Of a stretch of DNA of 64,000 nucleotides, positions 12,182 through 25,485 are shown piece by piece. The stretch spans positions 1-64,000 of IMG/VR virus record IMGVR_UViG_3300024999_000067; one strand, given 5' to 3'. The translations under genes were made by a program, and so were the position numbers. This stretch comes from a virus. The notes under the pieces were generated by a model. That model saw only the letters and a list, made by a program, of their open reading frames with translations. It searched no databases and was not told the DNA's origin. Position 1 is the first letter of the stretch. Every line of letters begins with the position of its first letter.

Positions 12182-13498
12182 ATGGTTATGGAATATAAAT
12201 CGCAACCATTAGCAATCTTTGGTTCTACCTTATATGATTTTTTTAAACAAGGTAAGGATCAGGAAAAGTATTGGAAGGATGCTTACATATTGTACAGTTT
12301 TTATTATGATCTGGCACTAAAGCAAGATACTCATACAATATATTGTACAAAAAATTGGACAATGGAAGTAACGTGCTTGTCTGTCAGAAGTCTGCAAGGT
12401 GGAAGGGAATTGTTAAAAAGAATGGGTTTAATTTCTGAGTATGAGTACAGCAAAAAATACAATAAATATTTTTTCACAGTTAAAGTGGATACATTGGTAA
12501 ATGCAGAGGGAGGGGGGGTACGGTCCGTAGGGGGGGAGGGGGGTACGGTCCGTATATACAATTCTCCTACTACTATTTATTCTCCTACTATAAAACCCAT
12601 TAATATAAATATTAATGAATCCAGTTTAGAAAAACCAACTGATAAGCAAAAGTTTATCCGAAAAGATATTGCTCAAGAACCAGAAGAGAAAGAAAAACCA
12701 TTGCTTGTTAAAAAGATAATAAGACCATCTTTTGTAGATTCAAACGGAAAATATAGGGAAACCAAAAAGAATGTAGAATCTATTGAAATAGCGGCAAATA
12801 TTAAACACGCACTGGAATACTGGAACAGTAAGGAGGAACTGGTTACACATACCATAAATGAAGATAGCCCGTCAAAAACTTTGCTGCATTGTGTCCAGTT
12901 AGTAAAAATGTTTTTCTCTGGTAAACTGATTAAACATGCTTTATTGCCAAAAAATTTCGATCAGTCTTTATGGAAAGGGGGAAGACAGACACTGGAAGAT
13001 TGGAAATATTTTGTTGATGAAATTTGTTTATGCTTGAATGATCCCGGTTTATTGCCTAAGAAAAACGGTAAAGCATTGGCACTGCCTATATTCCTTGAGG
13101 GAAGTGAACGGTTAGAATTACCCGCTTTCATTTTCAATTACTGTTTGGGAGACTACAAAACGGCAGCAGTAGATGTAAACCCGAAGAATACCGTTAAGAT
13201 TAAGACATTTTGGGAACAATTAATTGGTAAGTTTAAAGATACACCAGAGAATCAGAAAGCCTTTGTAGCTATAAGTAATCTCAGTGAACAGACATTTGCC
13301 GAAAGGAGAAAGGTAAATAAAAATTGGATACCTGCAATGAATGAATACTTTCCCGCCAACATTGTCAAGAGTATTTTGCGACAGAATCTTTGGATAAAGG
13401 AGAAAGGACACCAGCCCGTGTATATGGATACAAAGTTCTTTAAAGGAATGGTGTCCCGCTATGACTATGATCGTACTACAGGGAAAATCATATTTTAA
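12182..13498 (+). CDS. Replication-initiator-like protein (winged-helix N-terminus)
   Basis: A 438-aa protein, with TTAGGAGAAAGGC before ATG 12182. Residues 1-110 look like a winged-helix unit (WKDAYILYSFYYDLALKQ...LSVRSLQGGRELLKRMG). Residues 110-135 are Gly-rich because the DNA here holds G-runs and palindromes. A charged linker and a C-terminal helical domain follow. The layout resembles lambda O and DnaD-like initiators, with origin-like repeats inside the gene and the helicase gene 1.8 kb downstream. Assignment is by architecture, not by a diagnostic motif. Confidence 0.55.
   Translation: MVMEYKSQPLAIFGSTLYDFFKQGKDQEKYWKDAYILYSFYYDLALKQDTHTIYCTKNWTMEVTCLSVRSLQGGRELLKRMGLISEYEYSKKYNKYFFTVKVDTLVNAEGGGVRSVGGEGGTVRIYNSPTTIYSPTIKPINININESSLEKPTDKQKFIRKDIAQEPEEKEKPLLVKKIIRPSFVDSNGKYRETKKNVESIEIAANIKHALEYWNSKEELVTHTINEDSPSKTLLHCVQLVKMFFSGKLIKHALLPKNFDQSLWKGGRQTLEDWKYFVDEICLCLNDPGLLPKKNGKALALPIFLEGSERLELPAFIFNYCLGDYKTAAVDVNPKNTVKIKTFWEQLIGKFKDTPENQKAFVAISNLSEQTFAERRKVNKNWIPAMNEYFPANIVKSILRQNLWIKEKGHQPVYMDTKFFKGMVSRYDYDRTTGKIIF
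12508..12616 (+). other. Origin-like repeat cluster inside initiator gene
   Basis: Two copies of TACGGTCCGTA, an 11-base palindrome with odd centre, lie at 12519-12529 and 12544-12554. Each is preceded by G-runs (GGGAGGGGGGG and GGGGGGGAGGGGGG) able to form a G-quadruplex. Then come two direct copies of ATTCTCCTACTA (12561-12572 and 12579-12590) and the AT palindrome ATTAATAT-AA-ATATTAAT (12599-12616). Iterons next to an AT-rich unwinding segment inside an initiator gene are the hallmark of lambda-type origins. Confidence 0.5.
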
Positions 13499-13511
13499 CG
13501 GGGGTATGGCC

Positions 13512-13703
13512 ATGAACATATACGATATAGATGGAATAACCTATGAAGCTTTTAACGAATACGAAGCCACTAAGAAAGCTTTTAAATCTGCTAAGAGTAT
13601 TAGTCTGGTAAAGTACCTTGGTGAAGATAAATGGAATTACAACATAGAATTTCCACATGGAAAAGCCACAGTTCTTGTTGTAAGAACATACCCCATACGG
13701 TAA
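13512..13703 (+). CDS. Small hypothetical protein
   Basis: A 63-aa protein (MNIYDIDGITYEAF...). Start 13512 is preferred over 13506 for spacing from the G-rich ribosome binding site. Mixed alpha/beta, unrecognised. Confidence 0.6.
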   Translation: MNIYDIDGITYEAFNEYEATKKAFKSAKSISLVKYLGEDKWNYNIEFPHGKATVLVVRTYPIR

Positions 13704-13709
13704 ATAATA

Positions 13710-14069
13710 ATGTTACATATATTCCATGGATCAACTAGAACTGTGATAGTAGGTGGTAAATATGCGTTCAAAATACCAAGAATGTGGTCATGGAAAACAT
13801 TTCTTACTGGTTTACTAGCCAACATGCAGGAGGTTGAGTTTTATTTAACAAAGTGGATTGAGCTTTGTCCTGTAGCATTTAATTTACCTTTGGGATTTTT
13901 AGTTGTAATGGTTAAGACCAATCCTATTTCTGATAAAGAATGGGAAATAATAAAAGAAACATCGGGAACCTTTCCTCCTGGAAAGGATTATATAATTCTA
14001 GTAGAGAGAAAAAGAAACAGTTTTGGAAAACTAAATGGCAAAATAGTGGCTATAGACTATGGAACTTGA
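13710..14069 (+). CDS. Conserved-looking phage protein, kinase-like N-lobe features
   Basis: A 119-aa protein. GGKYAFKIPR resembles a glycine-loop/lysine strand, QEVEF could be the helix-C Glu, and IVAIDYGT resembles a DFG-type strand. No HRD catalytic loop is present and the protein is far too short for a complete kinase. It could be a degenerate kinase-fold protein or an unrelated fold. Low confidence in function; the gene itself looks real. Confidence 0.5.
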   Translation: MLHIFHGSTRTVIVGGKYAFKIPRMWSWKTFLTGLLANMQEVEFYLTKWIELCPVAFNLPLGFLVVMVKTNPISDKEWEIIKETSGTFPPGKDYIILVERKRNSFGKLNGKIVAIDYGT

Positions 14070-14103
14070 ACAGGTAATTAATATCTTTTAAGTGGAGATT
14101 GTG

Positions 14104-14748
14104 ATGGATGTTTTAGACTATACAGTGAATAGAAACTATTCAGTACCAGCTGCCTATGCGGTTTTTGTAAATATGGGTAAGGTACTACTGTTAAAGCGGT
14201 ACAACACTGGATATGGAGACGGTTGTTACTCATTACCTGCTGGTCACGTTGAACCTGGGGAAGCCCCATCTGACTGTCTGGTAAGGGAAATAGCCGAAGA
14301 GATCGGTGTGAGACTTACTGTATTTCGGTTTGCCCACATAATGTATAGGGTTTCAGAAAATGCTACATCTAGTAGATGTGATTGGTTCTTCCTTGTAGAA
14401 GACTGGGAAGGAAATATAACTAACTCAGAACCCCATAAGTGTTCTGAGTTAGTTTGGGTACCTATTACATCTTTACCAAAAAATACACTTCCTTATATAC
14501 GACTAGCTATTAACAGCATCATTGTGGGAAATAGCAGTAGTGAGTTTATACTTTCATTTGGTGAAACAAAACCCTTAGATATTTGTTATCTGTGCGGCAG
14601 AAAAGTATTAAATGGTATAGAGGCAATAGTGGACGTTGAGGGGAATGTTTTCCATGGTTGGTGTGTAGAACGAAAAACGATACCAACTATAGAGGCTATG
14701 GGTATTTTGTCAAATAGGTATTTCAATAAAGGCACAAGTAAAGATTGA
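14104..14748 (+). CDS. NUDIX hydrolase with C-terminal zinc motif
   Basis: A 214-aa protein. The Nudix box GHVEPGEAPSDCLVREIAEE is complete (Gx5Ex7REUxEE). The C-terminal 70 residues add CYLC and HGWC, a probable zinc-binding appendage not usual in small Nudix enzymes. Likely substrates are nucleoside diphosphate-X compounds or oxidised or modified dNTPs. In a phage with modified guanine, pool sanitation is plausible but unproven. GGAGATTGTG precedes ATG 14104. Confidence 0.85.
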   Translation: MDVLDYTVNRNYSVPAAYAVFVNMGKVLLLKRYNTGYGDGCYSLPAGHVEPGEAPSDCLVREIAEEIGVRLTVFRFAHIMYRVSENATSSRCDWFFLVEDWEGNITNSEPHKCSELVWVPITSLPKNTLPYIRLAINSIIVGNSSSEFILSFGETKPLDICYLCGRKVLNGIEAIVDVEGNVFHGWCVERKTIPTIEAMGILSNRYFNKGTSKD

Positions 14749-14818
14749 TGTGCTAAATAGGGTGTTTTCTTCTTTTTTAACGGGAATGCCCCTAATTTCA
14801 ATTTTCGAGGTAACAGGT

Positions 14819-15283
14819 ATGAGTGATAAGACTACCCCTAAGCCGTTAAATCCCGAGGGAATCTCCGCTATTCCTGAAGGGGAAAAGGATACAGAACAGG
14901 AGAGCAGAGCAGAAGCAAAAGATTTAACCATAGGAGAAAGATTTGGTACATTTATTGGAAGGATGAAGCTGAACAAACCCAATTTTGAAGAGATAGAAAG
15001 AAAACCTGGCGCTGACAAATTATTTAGAAAGGGAAAGGAATGGATTTTAGAAGGAATTGACTTCCATGAAGCGGAGGTAAAAGCTATGGCACTTGCTTTA
15101 AAAGAACAGAAAACAGATAAGTGGTTTATACAAGTGGAAGAGGCCGATCAGCTTATGAAAAAGATAAAAGAAGGGGTAGTTTTTAATTGCCCTATTTGTG
15201 GAACCCCTGCTAAATTCGATGGAATAATCCATGAGGATTACTTGTTCTCATTACAATGTACTTGCAATAAAGAGGGCAAGTAA
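14819..15283 (+). CDS. Hypothetical protein with C-terminal zinc ribbon, upstream of helicase
   Basis: A 154-aa protein. The N-terminal 45 residues are polar and probably disordered, the middle is helical, and the C-terminus has CPIC and CTC. GAGGTAACAGGT precedes ATG 14819. It ends one base into the helicase start (TAATG), so co-translation and partnership with the helicase (for example as a loader) are possible but not shown. Confidence 0.6.
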   Translation: MSDKTTPKPLNPEGISAIPEGEKDTEQESRAEAKDLTIGERFGTFIGRMKLNKPNFEEIERKPGADKLFRKGKEWILEGIDFHEAEVKAMALALKEQKTDKWFIQVEEADQLMKKIKEGVVFNCPICGTPAKFDGIIHEDYLFSLQCTCNKEGK

Positions 15284-17105: not shown

Positions 17106-17119
17106 AATTCGGAGGAATG

Positions 17120-17530
17120 ATGTACACAATACGAAAAGTGTTTAAGTTGGAAGGAGCCCACATACTGTCACGGTCATTCTCTAAAGAGTGCCAAAGAATC
17201 CACGGCCACAGCTATCGTGTGGAAATATTTATTTCTACTGAAGAGTTGAATGCTGACGGTATGGTAGTTGATTTCAAGTTGATGAAAAATAACATTGGTT
17301 ACATGATAGACTGTTGGGATCATAGATGTTTGGTATCAAGTGATTCATATAAAGGCATTGAGTTACTGGGAACATTCCATGACTCCTTTGTTGTTGTTCC
17401 GTTTAACCCTACTGCCGAGAATATGTGCAAAGATATTTACGATCGGGTAAAAGAATGTGTTCCCAATGGTTTCACTTTAAAAGTAAGAATACATGAAACG
17501 GATACTGGCTATGCAGAATACTATGAATGA
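17120..17530 (+). CDS. queD: 6-carboxy-5,6,7,8-tetrahydropterin synthase (QueD)
   Basis: A 136-aa PTPS-fold protein, normal for QueD. It should convert dihydroneopterin triphosphate, the FolE product, to 6-carboxytetrahydropterin, step 2 of preQ0 synthesis. Zinc ligands are visible as GAHIL and RIHGHSY. C..RIHGHSY provides the catalytic Cys, WDHRCL the second His, and the C-terminal ETDTGYAEY the substrate-binding Glu. GGAGG is four to five bases upstream; ATG 17117 or 17120 are both possible. The first of the deazaguanine enzymes. Confidence 0.9.
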   Translation: MYTIRKVFKLEGAHILSRSFSKECQRIHGHSYRVEIFISTEELNADGMVVDFKLMKNNIGYMIDCWDHRCLVSSDSYKGIELLGTFHDSFVVVPFNPTAENMCKDIYDRVKECVPNGFTLKVRIHETDTGYAEYYE

Positions 17531-17639: not shown

Positions 17640-17722
17640 TACGGGCTAAGATTTCACAAGATCACCCAGGATGGAACATTTCAGGGTATTGCCTACCTAG
17701 TGGTGATGAAAATGGCAAATGA
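17636..17722 (+). CDS. Possible 28-aa coupled ORF
   Basis: ATGA overlap at 17636-17639 opens a 28-codon frame (MIRAKISQDHPGWNISG...) that runs 17 bases into the start of QueE. Translational coupling is the only evidence. It may simply hand ribosomes to queE, which lacks a good ribosome binding site. Confidence 0.35.
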   Translation: MIRAKISQDHPGWNISGYCLPSGDENGK

Positions 17723-18554
17723 AAAAATAGGACACCACGCTACTTACTGGGATGGTAAAAGTATGGTAGATTCTTGGGGAAATACATGGCAAGCATTTAT
17801 TCCAGAAATTAAACCATATCCTTATTTTATAAGCGAAGGAGATATTACGGCACCGTGGAAGTTGGCAAATTCATGGATATTAAAGAAAGACATTAAATTT
17901 AACCAGAGGGATATTATGCCAATCCTGTTAAGGGAAGTACAATACACATTTAGTGGTGAAGTGGGCCACATAGTCCAAGGTTCTCCGGTGCTTTTAATAC
18001 GTATCCAAGGTTGCAATCTCCCATGTCCTTGGTGCGATGCTAAAGGTACACAAGACTTTGAACATGGTTTATCTGTAGACCACCGAGTACTGGCAGAGTT
18101 GATGTATAACTCAGCATTTCCTATTCTGCTTACTGGTGGTGAGCCACTGTTACATTCCCAAGCTATTTTAAAAGCATTTGAATTACTTGCCACAAAATAT
18201 AACGTAAACAGAGTAGTGCAGATTGAAACAAACGGATCAATAGCCATAGATCCAGATTTATTTGAATATGCCACATTTGTTGTCGATTACAAGTTCAAGT
18301 ATGAAGACCAGATGAGGAAAGATAATTGGGATATTCTAACCAATAAAGATTTCATCAAGATATTGGTTACCGACCAAGATGACGTAAACGAATTAGAACA
18401 GTTTATTGCCGAGTTTTCAACAAGCTGTAAAGCACGACTGGCAGTATCCTGTACAGATAACCAACTTTATAAGGAAGTCTGTGATTTGGTACTTGACAAC
18501 AAATGGCCCATTATTGTAAACGTACAGATACATAAACTTTTAGGAATAGCATAG
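17706..18554 (+). CDS. queE: 7-carboxy-7-deazaguanine synthase (QueE), with N-terminal extension
   Basis: A radical SAM enzyme that ring-contracts 6-carboxytetrahydropterin to 7-carboxy-7-deazaguanine. The cluster motif is CNLPCPWCDAKGT (Cx3Cx2C). LLTGGEPLL and IETNGS are the GGE and substrate-strand motifs of QueE. The QueE core begins near MPILLREVQYTFSGE (ATG 17916, preceded by AGAGGGATATT). The upstream in-frame 70 residues (WDGKSMVDSWGNTW...) look protein-like but are not part of standard QueE. Either the gene starts at 17916 with a separate ORF before it, or QueE carries an extra N-terminal domain. Confidence 0.9.
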   Translation: MKMANEKIGHHATYWDGKSMVDSWGNTWQAFIPEIKPYPYFISEGDITAPWKLANSWILKKDIKFNQRDIMPILLREVQYTFSGEVGHIVQGSPVLLIRIQGCNLPCPWCDAKGTQDFEHGLSVDHRVLAELMYNSAFPILLTGGEPLLHSQAILKAFELLATKYNVNRVVQIETNGSIAIDPDLFEYATFVVDYKFKYEDQMRKDNWDILTNKDFIKILVTDQDDVNELEQFIAEFSTSCKARLAVSCTDNQLYKEVCDLVLDNKWPIIVNVQIHKLLGIA

Positions 18555-18567
18555 GAGGTGGTTCCCG

Positions 18568-18711
18568 TTGTCTGAAACTAAAACATTGAAGTGTAAAAAA
18601 TGTGGTTGGAAATGGATTCCCAGAAAGGCAGATGTAAGGCAATGCCCTCATTGTAAAACAGCGTACTGGAATGTGGACAAGAAAGAAGTACAACCAAAAA
18701 AGGAGAAGTAA
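18568..18711 (+). CDS. 47-aa zinc-ribbon protein (TTG start)
   Basis: AGGAGGTG followed by eight bases and TTG 18568 opens MSETKTLKCKKCGWKW..., with CKKC at residues 9-12 and CPHC at 26-29, a classic minimal zinc ribbon. It ends at TAA 18709-18711, just before the ribosome binding site of the next gene. Its place in the deazaguanine cluster may be fortuitous. Confidence 0.7.
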   Translation: MSETKTLKCKKCGWKWIPRKADVRQCPHCKTAYWNVDKKEVQPKKEK

Positions 18712-18712
18712 A

Positions 18713-19327
18713 ATGGGTGAAGTTAACGAGGTAAAGAAAGTCAATGCCGCCAATCTGAAGAAAGCAGTCAAAGAGTTGAACGACCTGGCAGTAGAAGGGG
18801 TTGCCAAAATCAGGACAGTTGGAATCAATGTCAATGATATGGCTCTCCAGTTTATCAAAGCCTGTAATGCCGTGAATGACATTGATGAGAAACTTCTCAC
18901 TGATTCAATGGTGGAAGTATATAATTCCCTGCCTGCCCCGGAAGAGTTGGCCGTAGCTCAGAAGGCACCGAAGGAGAAGAAAGCCAAGGAGCCCAAAGAG
19001 AAGAAGGTAAAAGCACCGAAAGAGCCCAAGGAAAAGAGAGAGCGTAAGGGACCGCATGATGGTGCAGCCCGCAGCCGGTACAATCATCTTCAGGGGGCTA
19101 AATCTGGTAAGCTTGATGACATGCTCTTTGCAGGTGGTACGATGGAAGAGATTATGGCTGGATGTGATGTTCCTATGATCCGTGTAAAAGGGCATAGTGC
19201 CCATCTTGTTAAAGACCTTGGTCTTACTCTGGTTATTACCGAGAACAAGGAAGACCCGATGAAGACCAAGTACAAGGTGAAGGAAGAGAAGTGGGTGCCT
19301 CCCGCTGCTGAAGCCGCAAAAGAGTAG
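18713..19327 (+). CDS. Putative nucleoid-type DNA-binding protein (paralogue of 3093-3758)
   Basis: A 204-aa protein. A helical N-terminal 75 residues lead to a very basic linker of repeated PKE-KK and PKEPKEK units (about residues 80-115). The C-terminal winged-helix-like domain then shows YNHLQGAKSGKLDD, GGTMEEI, HSAHLVKDLG and LVITE. The linker resembles histone H1 tails. AAGGAG sets the start. It is followed directly by a strong terminator hairpin, so it ends this transcription unit. Abundant DNA packaging or regulation is my inference. Confidence 0.6.
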   Translation: MGEVNEVKKVNAANLKKAVKELNDLAVEGVAKIRTVGINVNDMALQFIKACNAVNDIDEKLLTDSMVEVYNSLPAPEELAVAQKAPKEKKAKEPKEKKVKAPKEPKEKRERKGPHDGAARSRYNHLQGAKSGKLDDMLFAGGTMEEIMAGCDVPMIRVKGHSAHLVKDLGLTLVITENKEDPMKTKYKVKEEKWVPPAAEAAKE

Positions 19328-19410: not shown

Positions 19411-19986
19411 ATGCCTGATCATTCCAGACTTAAAATGTCCGCAGCTAATATAATCGAAGCTGTTGGTGAAGATTTAGATGATCCAAATTTTAAAGAAACC
19501 CCTAACCGATTTGCAAAAGCTTTCTCATTTCTGTTCAAAAATCCCAAAGTTATTGAACTAGAAGTGGCTGAAGTAATGAAGACCAGTTTCCCTACTCAGT
19601 ATGATGGTTTAATATTCTGTGATGGTTTAGAGTTCACTTCCTTCTGCCCGCATCATCTTTTACCTATCAAGTATGAAGTTATTATTGGTTACATTCCTTC
19701 AGAGGGAATGGTAATTGGTGCTTCTAAACTGGCAAGGGTTGTTGAACTGTACTGTAAACGGGCAATGTTGCAGGAGGAATTGACCAGAACCATTGCTGAT
19801 ACGATTGAGAAATATATTAAACCTGCTGGTGTAGCTATCCTGATTATTGGGTATCATGATTGTATGAGGATACGTGGTATCCAGCAGAGAAATGCCAGAT
19901 TCAAAACTTCTGAAATGCGTGGTGCATTTAAAACCAATACTGAAACAAGGGAAGAGTTTTTCCATCTTATGGCTAAAGGAGTTTGA
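19411..19986 (+). CDS. folE: GTP cyclohydrolase I (FolE)
   Basis: A 191-aa GCH-I. It converts GTP to dihydroneopterin triphosphate, step 1 of preQ0 synthesis. ETPNRFAKA, FCPHHLLP (usually CEHH; here the second residue is Pro) and HDCMRIRGI give the zinc Cys/His/Cys ligands and the catalytic His. Length matches the bacterial enzyme. No clear AAGGAG lies ahead of ATG 19411 (AAAGGTAACCAG is close). Presence with QueD, QueE and QueC in one cluster argues for a dedicated deazaguanine supply rather than folate synthesis. Confidence 0.92.
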   Translation: MPDHSRLKMSAANIIEAVGEDLDDPNFKETPNRFAKAFSFLFKNPKVIELEVAEVMKTSFPTQYDGLIFCDGLEFTSFCPHHLLPIKYEVIIGYIPSEGMVIGASKLARVVELYCKRAMLQEELTRTIADTIEKYIKPAGVAILIIGYHDCMRIRGIQQRNARFKTSEMRGAFKTNTETREEFFHLMAKGV

Positions 19987-20200: not shown

Positions 20201-20569
20201 ATGGCAGAGGTAAAACGGAATACCCATATTGTCATAAAGAGGGATGACGTTACCGAGTTTCTTTCTGAAGAAGAAAGATCAACGCTGGACAAACTGGTGT
20301 ATGAAATAAAAGTACGGAGACTGCACAAACTAAAACCACCACATAATGAGTATATTGTCTGTAACTGGAATGAACCATATGCCCAGAAGGTTTTAGATGT
20401 TATACTGGAAGGGGAGGAATTAAAAAGTGGTACAATTTTTATTGATGTAGAAAAAGAAGCTTGGGAATCAATTAAACAAGCAGTAACTGAATCTCCTTGG
20501 ATACCTGAAGATTATTATATGAATGATTGGGTAGCCGATATTCGTTCTTTTCTTCTTAAAAAGGATTGA
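20201..20569 (+). CDS. Hypothetical protein
   Basis: A 122-aa protein (MAEVKRNTHIVIKRDDV...) located between folE and the radical SAM gene. It has no Cys-rich or nucleotide-binding motif. Helical N-terminal half. Its stop overlaps the radical SAM start, so the two are coupled and may work together. Confidence 0.6.
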   Translation: MAEVKRNTHIVIKRDDVTEFLSEEERSTLDKLVYEIKVRRLHKLKPPHNEYIVCNWNEPYAQKVLDVILEGEELKSGTIFIDVEKEAWESIKQAVTESPWIPEDYYMNDWVADIRSFLLKKD

Positions 20570-21561
20570 TGCAAATGAACTTGGTGAAAGCCGAAATACT
20601 GTTCAGCAGAAAGTGTAATCTTGGTTGTAAGCATTGCGCTATGGTGACTGGGCAAAGTAATTCTCTTACCATAGAAGAATGGAAAGCTGGCTTTGATAAT
20701 CTGAAGGAATTGGGATGTTCTTTTTCTGCATTCTATGGAGCGGAACCATTCCTTGAGTTTAATAAACTGAAAGTAGTTTTGCCCTACGCTGAATCTATTG
20801 GTATCCATACTACGGTAATTACTTCTGGTACACGTATTCCAGATTTTCATAACAAGTTGAAGGAACTGCATAAGGCAGGTGGTAAAAGTCTGTCCATGTC
20901 CTATGACATTCTGGCATACGATATGAGTTCCGCAAAGAAAAGAGATGCTGCTTTAAAATCTTTGAAGTACTGGAAAACCTTTACCGATATACGGGATGCA
21001 GCAGCTATCACCACTTTGACAGCAAGAAACTTTCACCTGTTACCCGCAATGGTTCAACAGATGAGTGATCTTGGGATATGGACTTTCTATGATCTGATTC
21101 ATGAAGATCGTGGACAGCCTGGATCGAAGTGCAAAGGTAAAGCTGGTAACTTGATGTTCAAACCTGATCAACTGGACAAACTGTTTGAAGTATTGGAACT
21201 GGTTACTGATATGAGTAAGAATGGGTTCCTTGTCCATAACTCTGATAACTTTGTGAAAATGCTTCAGTATATGTACGGTAATACATCTGGTATTTATAAC
21301 TGGTGTTGTGCCAGACATAATGAATTCCCATCATGGTTGACTATTGACTGTGACGGTACCGTTTTACCGTGTGACGATTTCCATATTACCAGAGAGTTTA
21401 AATTCCATCATAATTTGGATACTTGGTGGCCTAAATGCATACCAGTATTCAGGGAAGAGATACAGAAGAAGGAATGCCACTGTGCTTGGAACACTCATAT
21501 CGATGCCCACTTTATCAAAGCAGGGCATGGTAAACTTTCTGATTACATTCATGGGGTATGA
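20569..21561 (+). CDS. Radical SAM enzyme with SPASM-like Cys-rich C-terminus
   Basis: About 330 residues. CNLGCKHC (Cx3Cx2C) near residue 15 binds the SAM cluster; FYGAEPFLE replaces the usual GGEP strand. The C-terminal 90 residues hold CC, DCDGTVLPCDD and CHCAW, fitting an auxiliary-cluster SPASM or Twitch domain. Lying between FolE and QueC but not being QueE, it is a candidate to further modify preQ0, the modified base in DNA, or a peptide or protein. SPASM enzymes are best known for peptide modification. Start at 20569 or 20575 (AAAAAGGA upstream). Confidence 0.8.
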   Translation: MQMNLVKAEILFSRKCNLGCKHCAMVTGQSNSLTIEEWKAGFDNLKELGCSFSAFYGAEPFLEFNKLKVVLPYAESIGIHTTVITSGTRIPDFHNKLKELHKAGGKSLSMSYDILAYDMSSAKKRDAALKSLKYWKTFTDIRDAAAITTLTARNFHLLPAMVQQMSDLGIWTFYDLIHEDRGQPGSKCKGKAGNLMFKPDQLDKLFEVLELVTDMSKNGFLVHNSDNFVKMLQYMYGNTSGIYNWCCARHNEFPSWLTIDCDGTVLPCDDFHITREFKFHHNLDTWWPKCIPVFREEIQKKECHCAWNTHIDAHFIKAGHGKLSDYIHGV

Positions 21562-21562
21562 A

Positions 21563-22261
21563 ATGACTAAAGAAGTCTTATGTATTTCTGGTGGAGTTGA
21601 CTCCGTTATTGCTTGGTACTACCTGAACAAACCCACAGCAGTGTATTTCAATACTGGTGTTCCATATGCTGCAAAAGAGAAGAGAGCATTAATGAATCTG
21701 GGAATACCGTTCATTGAGGATCACTCCCTGGAGTTTCCAGAAACCAGTATCTACATTCCACATAGAAATTTGCTGTTTGCTTCAAGGGCATCACAGTACG
21801 GGGACACTGTATATATGGCAGGTCTGAAAGATGATATGGTGGAAGACAAGAATGAAATGGCCTTTGCTGTAATGTCAGATTGCCTAACTGCTATTGGCAA
21901 GAAGCCAGTACAGGTATTATCCCCTTTCTGGAATATGATGAAGGAAGATATTATTAGATGGTTTCTTGCCAATAATGGTCATGCTGAATACCTTCTGAAA
22001 TGTACCTGTTCTTGCTACTCTGCTAAAGGGATAGAGTGTTTGGCATGTGAAGCATGTTTCCGAAAGAACTGTGCTTTATTTGCTAACGGTATAAAGCGTC
22101 CATTTGAATTCAATAAACTGGTACAGTATTACACCAATAGAGCATTGGAAGGGGTTTACATTTCAGAAAGAAACGAAAGTATTCTTAATTATGTGGAGTG
22201 GTTAAATGGACAGAGGAAAACTGTACAACACACCGAGAGACAAGCAAGTTTATTTCTTTGA
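21563..22261 (+). CDS. queC: 7-cyano-7-deazaguanine synthase (QueC)
   Basis: A 232-aa PP-loop ATPase. SGGVDS near residue 9 is the pyrophosphate-binding loop. CTCSCYSAKGIECLACEAC near residue 160 gives the QueC zinc-binding cysteines. It should convert carboxy-deazaguanine and ammonia with ATP to preQ0, the last step before insertion. Length matches family. I see no fused amidotransferase (Gat) domain and no QueF in the window, so preQ0 is the predicted free base. Confidence 0.88.
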   Translation: MTKEVLCISGGVDSVIAWYYLNKPTAVYFNTGVPYAAKEKRALMNLGIPFIEDHSLEFPETSIYIPHRNLLFASRASQYGDTVYMAGLKDDMVEDKNEMAFAVMSDCLTAIGKKPVQVLSPFWNMMKEDIIRWFLANNGHAEYLLKCTCSCYSAKGIECLACEACFRKNCALFANGIKRPFEFNKLVQYYTNRALEGVYISERNESILNYVEWLNGQRKTVQHTERQASLFL

Positions 22262-22532
22262 TATTGACGGTACTATTACTGTTGAAACTGAAGGGTGGGA
22301 TTATCTTAAGAGAACCCCACGATTGGAAGTTATCGATAAGATAAATACCCTGTATGATTCTGGGGTAGTGCATGTGGTGTTTTGGACTTCACGGTTATCT
22401 ATTGACAGGAAAGCAACAGAATTCTGGATGGATGTTCATGCAGTAAAGTATCATGAATTAAAGTTTGGTAAACCATTCTTTGACTTATATATCTGTGACA
22501 AGGCAATAAACATTGAACAGTGGGAGAAGTAA
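22206..22532 (+). CDS. Small HAD-superfamily hydrolase
   Basis: A 108-aa protein. FFDIDGTIT is HAD motif I (DxDGT), WTSR near residue 60 is motif II, and the K...FFDLYICDKA segment fits motifs III/IV. It lacks a cap domain, like other very small HAD phosphatases. It overlaps the QueC end by 56 bases. A role in dephosphorylating a nucleotide is plausible, given its place in a base-modification cluster, but the substrate is unknown. Confidence 0.8.
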   Translation: MDRGKLYNTPRDKQVYFFDIDGTITVETEGWDYLKRTPRLEVIDKINTLYDSGVVHVVFWTSRLSIDRKATEFWMDVHAVKYHELKFGKPFFDLYICDKAINIEQWEK

Positions 22533-22533
22533 A

Positions 22534-23136
22534 ATGCTGGTAAATATAATTAGAAATGGAAAATGCCCAACTAAATTAAACTTTGGTTGTGGCACTAATA
22601 TTTTGCCTTGTTTTTGGAATGTGGATATTCATATTGAAAAACATTTACTAGATGTGGCTCTTGATGGTACATGGGTATCAGAAGGTTTTGTGAAATCACC
22701 GCATGATTTTCCCAGGAATCATTTTAATACAATATTAGCGGAAATGTGCTTGGAACACATTCACCAAGATTTAATTCCTAATATTTTATTTAGTTTTTAC
22801 CACTCTTTGGCAGAGGATGGGGGACTGGAAATAATTGTTCCTAATTTTTATAAATTAGCAAAGAGCTTGGTTGAATTAGAAGAAAATGATTCTGGTTTGA
22901 TTTACGTAGATGGAATGCGGAATGTTACCAATGAATTTTTGGACCCATCTATGGATGACATAGGATTTGCTAGAGGACACCAATCTATTTGGACAAAAAA
23001 GTCCGCATACAGATGGCTTCATAATGAAGGGTTTATAAATATGGGATTTACTGAAATTGATAATTGGCATGTAAAAATAACAGCAATAAAGCCCGCTAAT
23101 AACTTTTATGGTTCCCCAATAAATAGACATGAGTAG
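22534..23136 (+). CDS. Class I SAM-dependent methyltransferase
   Basis: A 200-aa protein. KLNFGCGTNILP is motif I of Rossmann methyltransferases, NVDI supplies the acidic motif II, and EMCLEHIHQD matches the typical post-motif segment. No DNA-methylase DPPY/NPPY motif, so it is unlikely to be a classical adenine or cytosine methylase. In this cluster it might methylate a modified base, a sugar or a small molecule. It is not obviously DpdM, which has a different fold. Confidence 0.75.
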   Translation: MLVNIIRNGKCPTKLNFGCGTNILPCFWNVDIHIEKHLLDVALDGTWVSEGFVKSPHDFPRNHFNTILAEMCLEHIHQDLIPNILFSFYHSLAEDGGLEIIVPNFYKLAKSLVELEENDSGLIYVDGMRNVTNEFLDPSMDDIGFARGHQSIWTKKSAYRWLHNEGFINMGFTEIDNWHVKITAIKPANNFYGSPINRHE

Positions 23137-23668
23137 AATACTATTAACGCAAAAAGAATTTATTGAAAAATTTCAATATGTAGATGGTGAATTGTTTAGA
23201 AAGAAAACTACTTCTGCTAGAGCAAGGCAAGGGGATAAAGTTGGTTACCCTGACAAGAATAAATATTTACAAGTCAGAGTAAATTATAGATTGTACTATA
23301 TAAGTGTAATAGTATGGGTAATGCATACTGGAAAATACCCATTAGGAATAATAGATCATATTGATAGAGATACTTATAATAACCGAATAGAAAATTTAAG
23401 GGATACTACAAAATCGGGCAATAGTATTAATTCAAAAATTAGGGAGGATAATAAATCAGGTGTACGCGGGGTATGTTGGGATAAAGGTAGGGAAAAATGG
23501 AGAATGTTTATAACTCTTAATAGTAAACGGCAATCTCTTGGGTACCATAATGATTTTACAGAAGCTGTTTTTATCCGTTTTGCAGCAGAACAAAGTTGTG
23601 GTTTTGCCAAATGGGATAAAAACAGCTCCGCTTATCAATATGTAAAAACTATGGTTAAAATAAAATGA
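23129..23668 (+). CDS. HNH homing endonuclease with AP2 domain
   Basis: A 179-aa free-standing homing endonuclease. IDHIDRDTYNNRIENLR near residue 75 is an HNH_3 core. SGVRGVCWDKGREKW...GYHNDFTEA near residue 110 is an AP2-type DNA-binding domain. Such genes spread between phages by cutting and repair. It is inserted exactly between the methyltransferase and dpdA with small overlaps at both ends (8 and 4 bases), so it may be an insertion that leaves its neighbours intact. Confidence 0.88.
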   Translation: MSRILLTQKEFIEKFQYVDGELFRKKTTSARARQGDKVGYPDKNKYLQVRVNYRLYYISVIVWVMHTGKYPLGIIDHIDRDTYNNRIENLRDTTKSGNSINSKIREDNKSGVRGVCWDKGREKWRMFITLNSKRQSLGYHNDFTEAVFIRFAAEQSCGFAKWDKNSSAYQYVKTMVKIK

Positions 23669-25485
23669 GTAATATCAATATGGTGCTAGATAGTGGCGCA
23701 TTTTCGGCGGACCAGAAAGGCACTGAAGTAGATGTTTACAAGTACATGGATTTTATCCGTGAGAACAAAGTAAAATTATATTTCAACCTTGATGTTATCG
23801 GTAGTGCTGAAGGTTCTTGGAAAAATCAGGAGATAATGGAGAAGAGCGGGTTTAGCCCATTACCAGTATTTCACGTAGAAGACGAAGAAAGATACCTAGA
23901 CAGGTGCATAAGCGATTACCGATACTTTGCATTAGGCGGAATGGCAGGGGGAGTATCAGAGCAGTCAAGGGAAAGATTCCTTGACAGATGCTGGGAAAAG
24001 ATTTGCCCTGCACCAACATATATGCCCACAAACAAAGTACATGGTTTAGGTTTAGCTAGTCCGTTATTGATTTCTAAATACCCGTGGTATTGTATGACAG
24101 AAGAGGACCATACAGTATTGACAAAATCTGGTTGGAAAGCGTTAAAAGATTTAACTATCGGTACAGAGATTTTATGCTTCAATAAAGGAGTATCAAAATG
24201 GGAGGAAATACTAGAGATACCTATATTTCCCGTGATTAATGCTACCATAAATAGGATGTTTAATCGAAACTTTGATTCATTTACATCTGATAATCATAGA
24301 TGGAATATTTTTAGTAGAAAAGGAGAATATAAATGGAAAACAGAAAAAGAATTTGTAGCCAATGATACTATTCCAAGAATAGGAGAGTATACTTTTCCCA
24401 CTAAAAAAATATATTCGGATGAACAAGTTTCCGCTTTAGCTTGGTTTTGGACAGATGGGACCATAAAAGGAAGGAAAAACTATAAAAGTTCCAGTATTGT
24501 ATTATACCAATCAGTAAAAGCAAACCCACAAAAATGTGATATTATACGGGATATTCTAATAAAGAGTGGGGAAAAATATTGTGAAATGAAACCTACTGGT
24601 GGTAATGGTATAATAGCTTTTGAACTGTATGGGGAACTTTGTAAATGGTTACTGAGTATTGCTCCTAATAAGGAACTACCAGAGTTCCTTCCTCTTCAAT
24701 TAACCAAGGGGCAAACTAATTTATTCATTGAGCAAAGTATTCTTGCTGATGGTTTCAGGGGAAGGTTAGTACGAACTGACGGTTTTGGTATATCTGTCAG
24801 TAGGGGGTATAAAAGAAAAAATTTAGAGATACTACGGATAATGTGCTTGTTGTATGGAATACCTACTTCTATGAATTATACAGATGGTTATTCCAAATTG
24901 GCTTCTTCTTCTGTTAATAGAATTTATATTGGTAATGTAACAAAAGAAAAAGTTAAATACACTGGTAATCTGTGGTGTGTTCGTGTTCCGTCAGGGGCAT
25001 TTTTTACTAAATGCAAAGAGAAAATATATGTAACTGGAAATTCGGCCGACACAGCCAGTGGTATACATTACGGTAGATATGGAATTATTATTATTCCTAG
25101 AATGAAACATGGCGGGGAACCAGACTACCTGTCACCACCTTATTCAATCTATATAACGGAAAGGTCTTCTACTGTACAGGTAGAAGGAAAGCATATACGG
25201 AATGTTGCTCCGTCTGTCAGAAAATGGATATATGAATACATTGTTTCCAGAGGGTTTGCTGTAGGCAAGATTGATCTTGTTCCAGTTCCGAAAGGGTATG
25301 AACTACAGGAAGGGGAAAAGTTTACTGGTAAAGAAAAGGTATTGATTGAACGGGTAATTGAACCTGGGGTTGTTTCTAATGGTACAATCCGAGATTACTT
25401 TAACTTAGATTTTTACCTACAGATGGAGAAGGCTATTCCCGCTTGGCCTTGGCCATATAAACCTAAAATGAAAAGGATGTTTTAA
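23665..25485 (+). CDS. dpdA: DpdA-type 7-deazaguanine DNA transglycosylase, interrupted by an intein
   Basis: A 606-aa precursor. The exteins are residues 1-142 and 460-606 (289 aa when joined). They are TGT-like: LDSGAFSADQKG, ALGGMAGG and HGLGLASP, then YPWY joined to SADTASGIHYGRYG. In TGT enzymes this loop carries the catalytic region, and DpdA swaps guanine for a deazaguanine in DNA. With FolE, QueD, QueE and QueC upstream, the pathway is complete. The C-terminal extein is rich in aromatic and basic residues. The intein lies at the most conserved position, a typical site choice. Confidence 0.85.
   Translation: MSNINMVLDSGAFSADQKGTEVDVYKYMDFIRENKVKLYFNLDVIGSAEGSWKNQEIMEKSGFSPLPVFHVEDEERYLDRCISDYRYFALGGMAGGVSEQSRERFLDRCWEKICPAPTYMPTNKVHGLGLASPLLISKYPWYCMTEEDHTVLTKSGWKALKDLTIGTEILCFNKGVSKWEEILEIPIFPVINATINRMFNRNFDSFTSDNHRWNIFSRKGEYKWKTEKEFVANDTIPRIGEYTFPTKKIYSDEQVSALAWFWTDGTIKGRKNYKSSSIVLYQSVKANPQKCDIIRDILIKSGEKYCEMKPTGGNGIIAFELYGELCKWLLSIAPNKELPEFLPLQLTKGQTNLFIEQSILADGFRGRLVRTDGFGISVSRGYKRKNLEILRIMCLLYGIPTSMNYTDGYSKLASSSVNRIYIGNVTKEKVKYTGNLWCVRVPSGAFFTKCKEKIYVTGNSADTASGIHYGRYGIIIIPRMKHGGEPDYLSPPYSIYITERSSTVQVEGKHIRNVAPSVRKWIYEYIVSRGFAVGKIDLVPVPKGYELQEGEKFTGKEKVLIERVIEPGVVSNGTIRDYFNLDFYLQMEKAIPAWPWPYKPKMKRMF
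24091..25041 (+). mobile_element. Intein with LAGLIDADG-type homing endonuclease in dpdA
   Basis: Residues 143-459 of the precursor (317 aa). Block A starts with Cys143 (CMTEEDHTVLTKSGWKALK), block B has TSDNHRW (TxxH), block F is YTGNLWCVRVPSG, and block G ends VTGN before Ser460. The penultimate residue is Gly instead of the common His, a known tolerated variant. Two DOD-like motifs, ALAWFWTDGTI and FIEQSILADGF, mark a LAGLIDADG-family endonuclease. Splicing would restore an uninterrupted transglycosylase. Confidence 0.88.

Follow-up and report, generated by a model that had tools for sequence, protein, structure and literature searches.

The closest described system is the DpdA pathway of phages such as 9g and CAjan, in which FolE, QueD, QueE and DpdA are encoded in one cluster (PMC6884629). 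In a queC deletion, Gat-QueC together with DpdA suffices for the formation of dG+ (PMC6884629). Formation of preQ0 by Escherichia coli QueC requires Tyr35, Arg99 and Tyr131, three residues of the canonical motifs; QatC has lost these motifs and no longer produces preQ0 (PMC13329287). Cap9 of type IV CBASS and QatC of the qatABCD system are QueC-family deazaguanylation ligases (PMC11996544, PMC13329287); Cap9 conjugates 7-deazaguanine to protein (PMC11996544). In amide decoration of the Campylobacter jejuni capsule, the amidoligase Cj1438 links a carboxylate with a phosphorylated amino-alcohol, after which the HAD enzyme Cj1435 removes the phosphate (PMC11800397).

The stretch of DNA analyzed here (64,000 nucleotides, hereafter the window) belongs to a viral record 86.6 kb long (86,588 bases). 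It carries FolE, QueD, QueE and DpdA in one cluster, as in the described phage pathway. Unlike in that pathway, the canonical QueC or Gat-QueC is replaced or supplemented by a short QueC, a small HAD-family protein and a radical-SAM protein (rSAM). The order of genes is QueD, QueE, a Lys-rich protein, FolE, two small ORFs, rSAM, the QueC-like gene, HAD, a methyltransferase, an HNH endonuclease, and DpdA (Table 1). The module is best placed with the known deazaguanine pathway of phages, as a variant centered on a new radical-SAM family. No paper on the set of short QueC, HAD, and rSAM was found in the literature covered, two key papers on phage deazaguanines being outside this coverage, so that a prior mention is possible. 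DpdL, DpdM, and DpdN are enzymes known in the context of further phage deazaguanines.

Table 1. Features of the deazaguanine gene cluster and their positions in the window.
Feature	Position	Strand	Remarks
QueD, 6-carboxytetrahydropterin synthase	17117..17530	+	family matches
QueE, 7-carboxy-7-deazaguanine (CDG) synthase	17700..18554	+	best family, below NCBIfam cut-off
Lys-rich protein in the QueE/FolE interval	18671..19324		conserved in rSAM (23/35) and canonical (21/26) clusters
FolE, GTP cyclohydrolase I	19411..19986	+	E=6e-53
rSAM with Twitch-like C-terminal four-Cys site	20575..21561	+	328 aa; alternative starts TTG 20566 (331 aa) and ATG 20569; stop 21559-21561
CxxxCxxC (C14, C18, C21), predicted [4Fe-4S]-SAM cluster	20614..20637	+	invariant in 20/20 homologues
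Twitch-like cysteines C245, C266, C301, C303 (W-x-C...D..G..CDD...CxC-x-W-x-T-H)	21307..21483	+	C245, C266, C303 invariant
Short non-canonical QueC-like putative ATP-dependent ligase	21551..22261	+	start approximate, ATG 21551 or 21563
Small HAD-family phosphatase, putative (DIDGT, TSR, GKP, D..ICDK)	22206..22532	+	fused to short QueC in several relatives
Class I methyltransferase-like protein, sporadic accessory	22513..23136	+	Methyltransf_23 just below cut-off
HNH_3 homing-endonuclease-like gene	23129..23668		methyltransferase on one side, DpdA on the other
DpdA (DNA guanine transglycosylase family)	23665..25485	+	phrog_887 E=2e-34; interrupted by intein-like insert
Intein-like insert in DpdA	24091..25041		317 aa (Cys1 ... 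Gly-Asn / Ser)

Genes annotated as queuine tRNA-ribosyltransferase in isolated phages were 28–36% identical to the DpdA. Its intein-like insert is located exactly at the conserved YPWY-S-x-D motif; it had no match in Pfam, and its best PDB match, the AceL NrdHF intein, was weak (E=0.07). In the closest related locus, L001, DpdA is intein-free and about 95% identical to that of the window. A 36% identical relative of the HNH_3 gene is found elsewhere in L001.

The radical-SAM gene and its relatives

The rSAM ORF is intact. Among its three candidate starts, ATG 20575 corresponds to the starts of relatives in the alignment. The protein matched Pfam Radical_SAM (PF04055) with E=4e-12 and 47 bits against a gathering score of 29.5, and all 20 homologues compared matched the same family. 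Residues 14–21 read CNLGCKHC. Across these 20 diverse homologues, 35 columns were invariant, including C14, C18, C21, C245, C266, C303, CDD, and WxTH; the motif YG[AG][ES]P was likewise present in all of them. The C-terminal signature of the family is W-x-C ... CDD ... C-x(1,2)-C-x-W-x-T-H, the fourth auxiliary cysteine being the CxC or CxxC partner in 20 of 20 sequences. Given this conservation and the 91% identical copy in L001, where the gene order is the same, the rSAM gene is evidently under selection and is not a chance ORF.

The initial annotation had described an enzyme distinct from QueE, with a Cx3Cx2C motif and a Cys-rich C-terminus, and these observations hold. QueE is likewise a radical-SAM enzyme of the same cluster; however, it is encoded by a separate gene, rSAM adds the Twitch-like C-terminus, and no QueE family was listed among its matches. 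The further description as SPASM-like stands for the presence of a Cys-rich C-terminal site but not for a full SPASM domain. The Pfam SPASM model (PF13186) gave a sub-threshold 14.3 bits against a gathering score of 21.5, and only three of the 20 members matched it at E<=0.01. Four C-terminal cysteines are conserved, vs. seven in a full two-cluster SPASM domain. The spaced four-Cys pattern is one that we take to be of Twitch type with one auxiliary cluster, and the C-terminus fits a predicted Twitch-type, single auxiliary-cluster site rather than full SPASM.

The top NCBIfam matches of rSAM were NirJ (E=3e-12; 46 bits vs. a cut-off of 515) and other heme enzymes, and the PADLOC model of prokaryotic viperin matched with E=3e-9. 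These matches, like that to PqqE, rest mainly on the common radical-SAM core, which is all that the protein shares with characterized radical-SAM families. Assignment to viperin, NirJ, AhbD, PqqE, or BlsE was rejected, the NCBIfam scores being 22–46 bits against curated cut-offs of 180–650. The scores for all curated NCBIfam models stayed well below the cut-offs, and tblastn with two members of the family gave no relative in 50,697 phage records; as far as profile and sequence comparisons tell, the rSAM therefore represents a family of radical-SAM enzymes that has not been described before.

Homologues were present on approximately 22 distinct viral contigs and on one contig assigned to a bacterial (Sulfuricurvum) assembly, mostly at 35–50% identity. 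Searching viral contigs with a single sequence retrieved one near copy only, and searching genome contigs with two sequences retrieved no relative; the homologues beyond L001 were reached by alignment-based scans of viral contigs and genome contigs. With one exception, the loci lie on viral contigs from metagenomes. Six further loci (L015–L020) were rejected as members of the family; they encode other radical-SAM proteins of 23–30% identity, and no DpdA was detected there.

The AlphaFold2 model of rSAM had a pLDDT of 90.5 and a pTM of 0.90. Its top PDB matches were all radical-SAM enzymes with the partial TIM-barrel fold. Comparison with SPASM/Twitch enzymes, proposed in the initial annotation, placed PqqE, SuiB, SkfB, and BlsE (TM 0.68) among the nearest solved folds, together with viperin and MoaA, at 12–20% identity; model TM-scores against PqqE, BlsE, MoaA, and SuiB were 0.53–0.68. 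Like these enzymes, rSAM combines the radical-SAM barrel with a Cys-rich C-terminal site, but it differs from them in its low identity, its own signature CDD...CxxCxWxTH, and the lack of a curated family. The fold neighbors span peptide, nucleoside, and nucleotide enzymes, several of them acting on nucleosides or nucleotides, and the match of the predicted fold alone gives no substrate identity. The rSAM fold was also matched, over about 350 columns, by a 571-aa protein of Myoviridae sp. ctgXL3 (BFVD A0A8S5QS09) named 7-cyano-7-deazaguanine synthase, which may be a natural rSAM-QueC fusion.

The neighboring QueC-like and HAD proteins

The QueCs of the collected loci fell into three types: the canonical one, Gat-QueC, and a short form, approximately 215–250 aa in length. 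The QueC of the window belongs to the short form. It retains SGGVDS, IPHRN, and the C4 zinc site and has lost YxQxHxxE and YPDC. In nearly all short QueCs, SGGxDS, PxRN, and the zinc cysteines (C(x)nCxxCxxC) were present, and none of the strong members carried either YxQxHxxE or YPDC; most canonical phage QueCs from the same scan kept YPDC. Judged by these motifs, the neighboring QueC is a divergent paralogue and not a canonical 7-cyano-7-deazaguanine synthase. The placement of rSAM between FolE and QueC is correct as to position, with two small ORFs following FolE, but the gene taken for QueC is this paralogue.

A profile search of the PDB with short QueCs retrieved QueC and Cap9. The structural matches of the short-QueC model (pLDDT 89.4) were ranked Cap9 (9nto_B), then QueC, then QatC. 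The phage protein thus has in common with Cap9 and QatC the QueC fold with SGGxDS and the zinc site. It differs from Cap9, which retains a YxDC motif, in lacking this motif; unlike Cap9 and QatC, it adjoins DpdA, and no CD-NTase or QatB partner was seen. The short QueC is the sole PF06508 gene of the rSAM1 virus records, except where a Gat-QueC is added; in this tally some short QueCs are split into two partial matches, and the bacterial assembly (G019) encodes a QueC of its own.

Short-type QueCs were also observed outside this setting. Bacteroides and gut phages with DpdA carry relatives that have neither HAD nor rSAM in their vicinity. Three loci, including that of the isolated Bacteroides phage BS162P1 (L115; also L116 and L117), contained a short-type QueC, DpdA, and QueE; over the stretch read, neither HAD nor rSAM was detected. 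In the isolated giant vibriophage QD01 (L119, 7983-11646), a divergent QueC-like gene with an altered SGGxDS loop adjoins a nicotinate-phosphoribosyltransferase-like gene and two radical-SAM genes.

In the HAD protein, the catalytic aspartates (DxDG) are kept, as are the positions of Arg and Lys and the final Asp. Its nearest PDB entries were a capsule-biosynthesis protein (9iqw) and 1xpj; it also resembles sugar- and polynucleotide-phosphatases. Short QueC and HAD form a single ORF in four loci (L012, L027, L044, and L053) and in additional loci from the QueC-seeded scan.

Distribution of the module across phage loci

Co-occurrence with dpdA and queC had been suggested as a check on the role of rSAM. 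A dpdA-family gene was present at every rSAM1 locus examined, and short QueC and HAD were near nearly all of them. For queC, the association held for the short form (20 of 20 rSAM loci) but not for the canonical one: at 25 canonical-QueC loci, neither rSAM nor a firm HAD was found. A scan was seeded with DpdA rather than with rSAM; after de-duplication, 62 loci had sufficient upstream sequence. Among these, rSAM and short QueC occurred together in 20, rSAM without short QueC in none, short QueC without rSAM in three, and neither in 39, a weaker rSAM2-like match in L104 falling below the threshold of this count. The association was strong (Fisher p=2e-13, relatedness of the loci not being corrected for). 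On the DpdA tree, the rSAM state changed at least five times on well-supported branches; in five well-supported independent contrasts the traits agreed in 3.3 and opposed each other in 0.1 on average, a trend in the expected direction that, with so few contrasts, was not significant.

Of the 36 strong short-QueC loci whose flanks were complete in a QueC-seeded scan, 31 had rSAM1 or rSAM2 (a second radical-SAM paralogue), 32 had HAD, and 33 had DpdA. The initial annotation had named both the HAD hydrolase and the methyltransferase as partners of rSAM. The HAD was retained on these counts, and the methyltransferase, a neighbor in only seven of 35 loci, was rejected as a core part of the module and is an occasional neighbor. 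When neighboring ORFs were clustered without preset families, rSAM and the short QueC/HAD group separated the cluster types, and FolE, QueD, QueE, and DpdA were common to the rSAM and canonical-QueC types. As the groups compared were defined by rSAM and QueC type, what this clustering adds independently is that the HAD discriminates between them and that no other family does so strongly.

Three loci (L043, L062, and L100) had short QueC and HAD and lacked rSAM; rSAM thus appears dispensable for the ligase/phosphatase step and would act in a later or optional one. Five others (L036, L037, L102, L105, and L009) combined Gat-QueC, short QueC, HAD, and rSAM2, some of them with a short-chain dehydrogenase, and possibly such phages make two guanine derivatives each. 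In L014, a different 559-aa transglycosylase-like (DpdA-type) protein (12995-14674) has HAD, short QueC, and two radical-SAM paralogues as neighbors. L025 has two tandem DpdA-like ORFs (13047-14974) in one cluster.

Proposed pathway and alternative explanations

In our judgment, it is reasonably likely that rSAM tailors a 7-deazaguanine for phage DNA, as part of a three-gene module with the divergent QueC and the small HAD phosphatase. Phages with the rSAM module probably build a DNA base so far unmeasured, presumably a new 7-substituted deazaguanine made by the module in place of, or in addition to, preQ0. By family assignment, FolE, QueD, and QueE would yield CDG. The short QueC would then adenylate the CDG carboxylate with ATP and join it to an amine other than ammonia instead of forming preQ0; this role is suggested by its fold, its lost preQ0 motifs, the precedent of Cap9 and QatC, and its coexistence with Gat-QueC. 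The HAD might strip a phosphate, most simply from the side chain of the amine, and rSAM could subsequently oxidize, dehydrogenate, decarboxylate, or rearrange this side chain. DpdA, again by family, would exchange the finished base for guanine in DNA. The proposed order of ligase and HAD resembles the chemical logic of the C. jejuni capsule amide decoration; this is an analogy only, drawn from chemistry with no sequence comparison of Cj1438 and Cj1435, and Cj1435 is larger than the phage HAD. No gene supplying the amine was found. Where Gat-QueC lies beside the module, the module would add a product rather than substitute for preQ0. A more specific version, in which a Cap9-like QueC, a phosphorylated amine, HAD, and rSAM/Twitch lead to N-substituted 7-amido-7-deazaguanines in DNA, beyond every base measured, is put forward tentatively and is possible rather than probable.

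The most probable competing account leaves the short QueC a fast-evolving phage preQ0/ADG synthase, with rSAM acting on preQ0, ADG, or inserted dPreQ0/dADG and the HAD in a side role, e.g., nucleotide dephosphorylation. It agrees with the short QueC being the only PF06508 gene in most rSAM phages, with its intact ATP loop, PxRN, and zinc cysteines, and with its relatives serving as the sole QueC of other DpdA phages that have no HAD or rSAM nearby. We nevertheless regard it as rather unlikely, because YPDC and YxQxHxxE are lost throughout, yet are required for preQ0 in E. coli (PMC13329287), and because several phages possess both Gat-QueC, sufficient with DpdA for dG+ (PMC6884629), and the short QueC. 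The HAD-QueC fusions, in addition, imply a phosphate-bearing step, which is foreign to canonical QueC. The earlier suggestion of a new deazaguanine-tailoring enzyme is accordingly supported by the tight co-occurrence with dpdA, short QueC, and HAD, but not in its part concerning preQ0 as such, since the adjoining QueC lacks YPDC and YxQxHxxE and canonical QueC never accompanies rSAM. Neither outcome that the initial annotation would have counted against its suggestion, strong similarity to a known unrelated radical-SAM family or missing co-occurrence with dpdA, was observed.

Peptide modification, also raised in the initial annotation, would have the short QueC place CDG on a protein N-terminus, as in Cap9 and QatC, and rSAM modify a peptide in a RiPP-like or counter-defense role. 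Cap9 is indeed the nearest structural neighbor of the short QueC, and many fold matches of rSAM are peptide maturases (PqqE, SuiB, and SkfB). DpdA in 33 of the 36 strong short-QueC loci points to DNA instead, and the clustering of neighboring ORFs gave no further module-specific family. There was no conserved precursor or partner gene; FolE, rSAM, and QueC often overlap or abut (gaps of −4 to +65 nt in many loci), which leaves no space for a RiPP precursor gene, and the explanation is improbable. Least credible, and in our view very improbable, is that rSAM is an unrelated auxiliary metabolic gene, either a heme enzyme similar to NirJ or AhbD or a viperin-like nucleotide enzyme, merely located in the cluster. 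The NirJ, heme-enzyme, and viperin matches speak for it; however, they lie far under the curated cut-offs and reflect only the common core, and such tight co-occurrence with short QueC, HAD, and also DpdA, seen across lineages that are mostly 35–50% identical, would not be expected of a passenger.

The preferred reading, a module tailoring a 7-deazaguanine for DNA, also bears on environmental surveys. A survey of Baltic sediments lists ahbD, along with queC and queD, as one of the most abundant viral genes, its function being considered speculative by the authors (PMC9301287). The rSAM matches the ahbD model weakly, and the viral "ahbD" genes of metagenome surveys may therefore partly be DNA-base enzymes. 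The module indicates an unmeasured type of phage DNA base and supplies the exact gene sets for finding it. If the proposed pathway is true, the QueC fold would have been turned to conjugation chemistry in phages too, as it has in bacterial defense by Cap9 and QatC.
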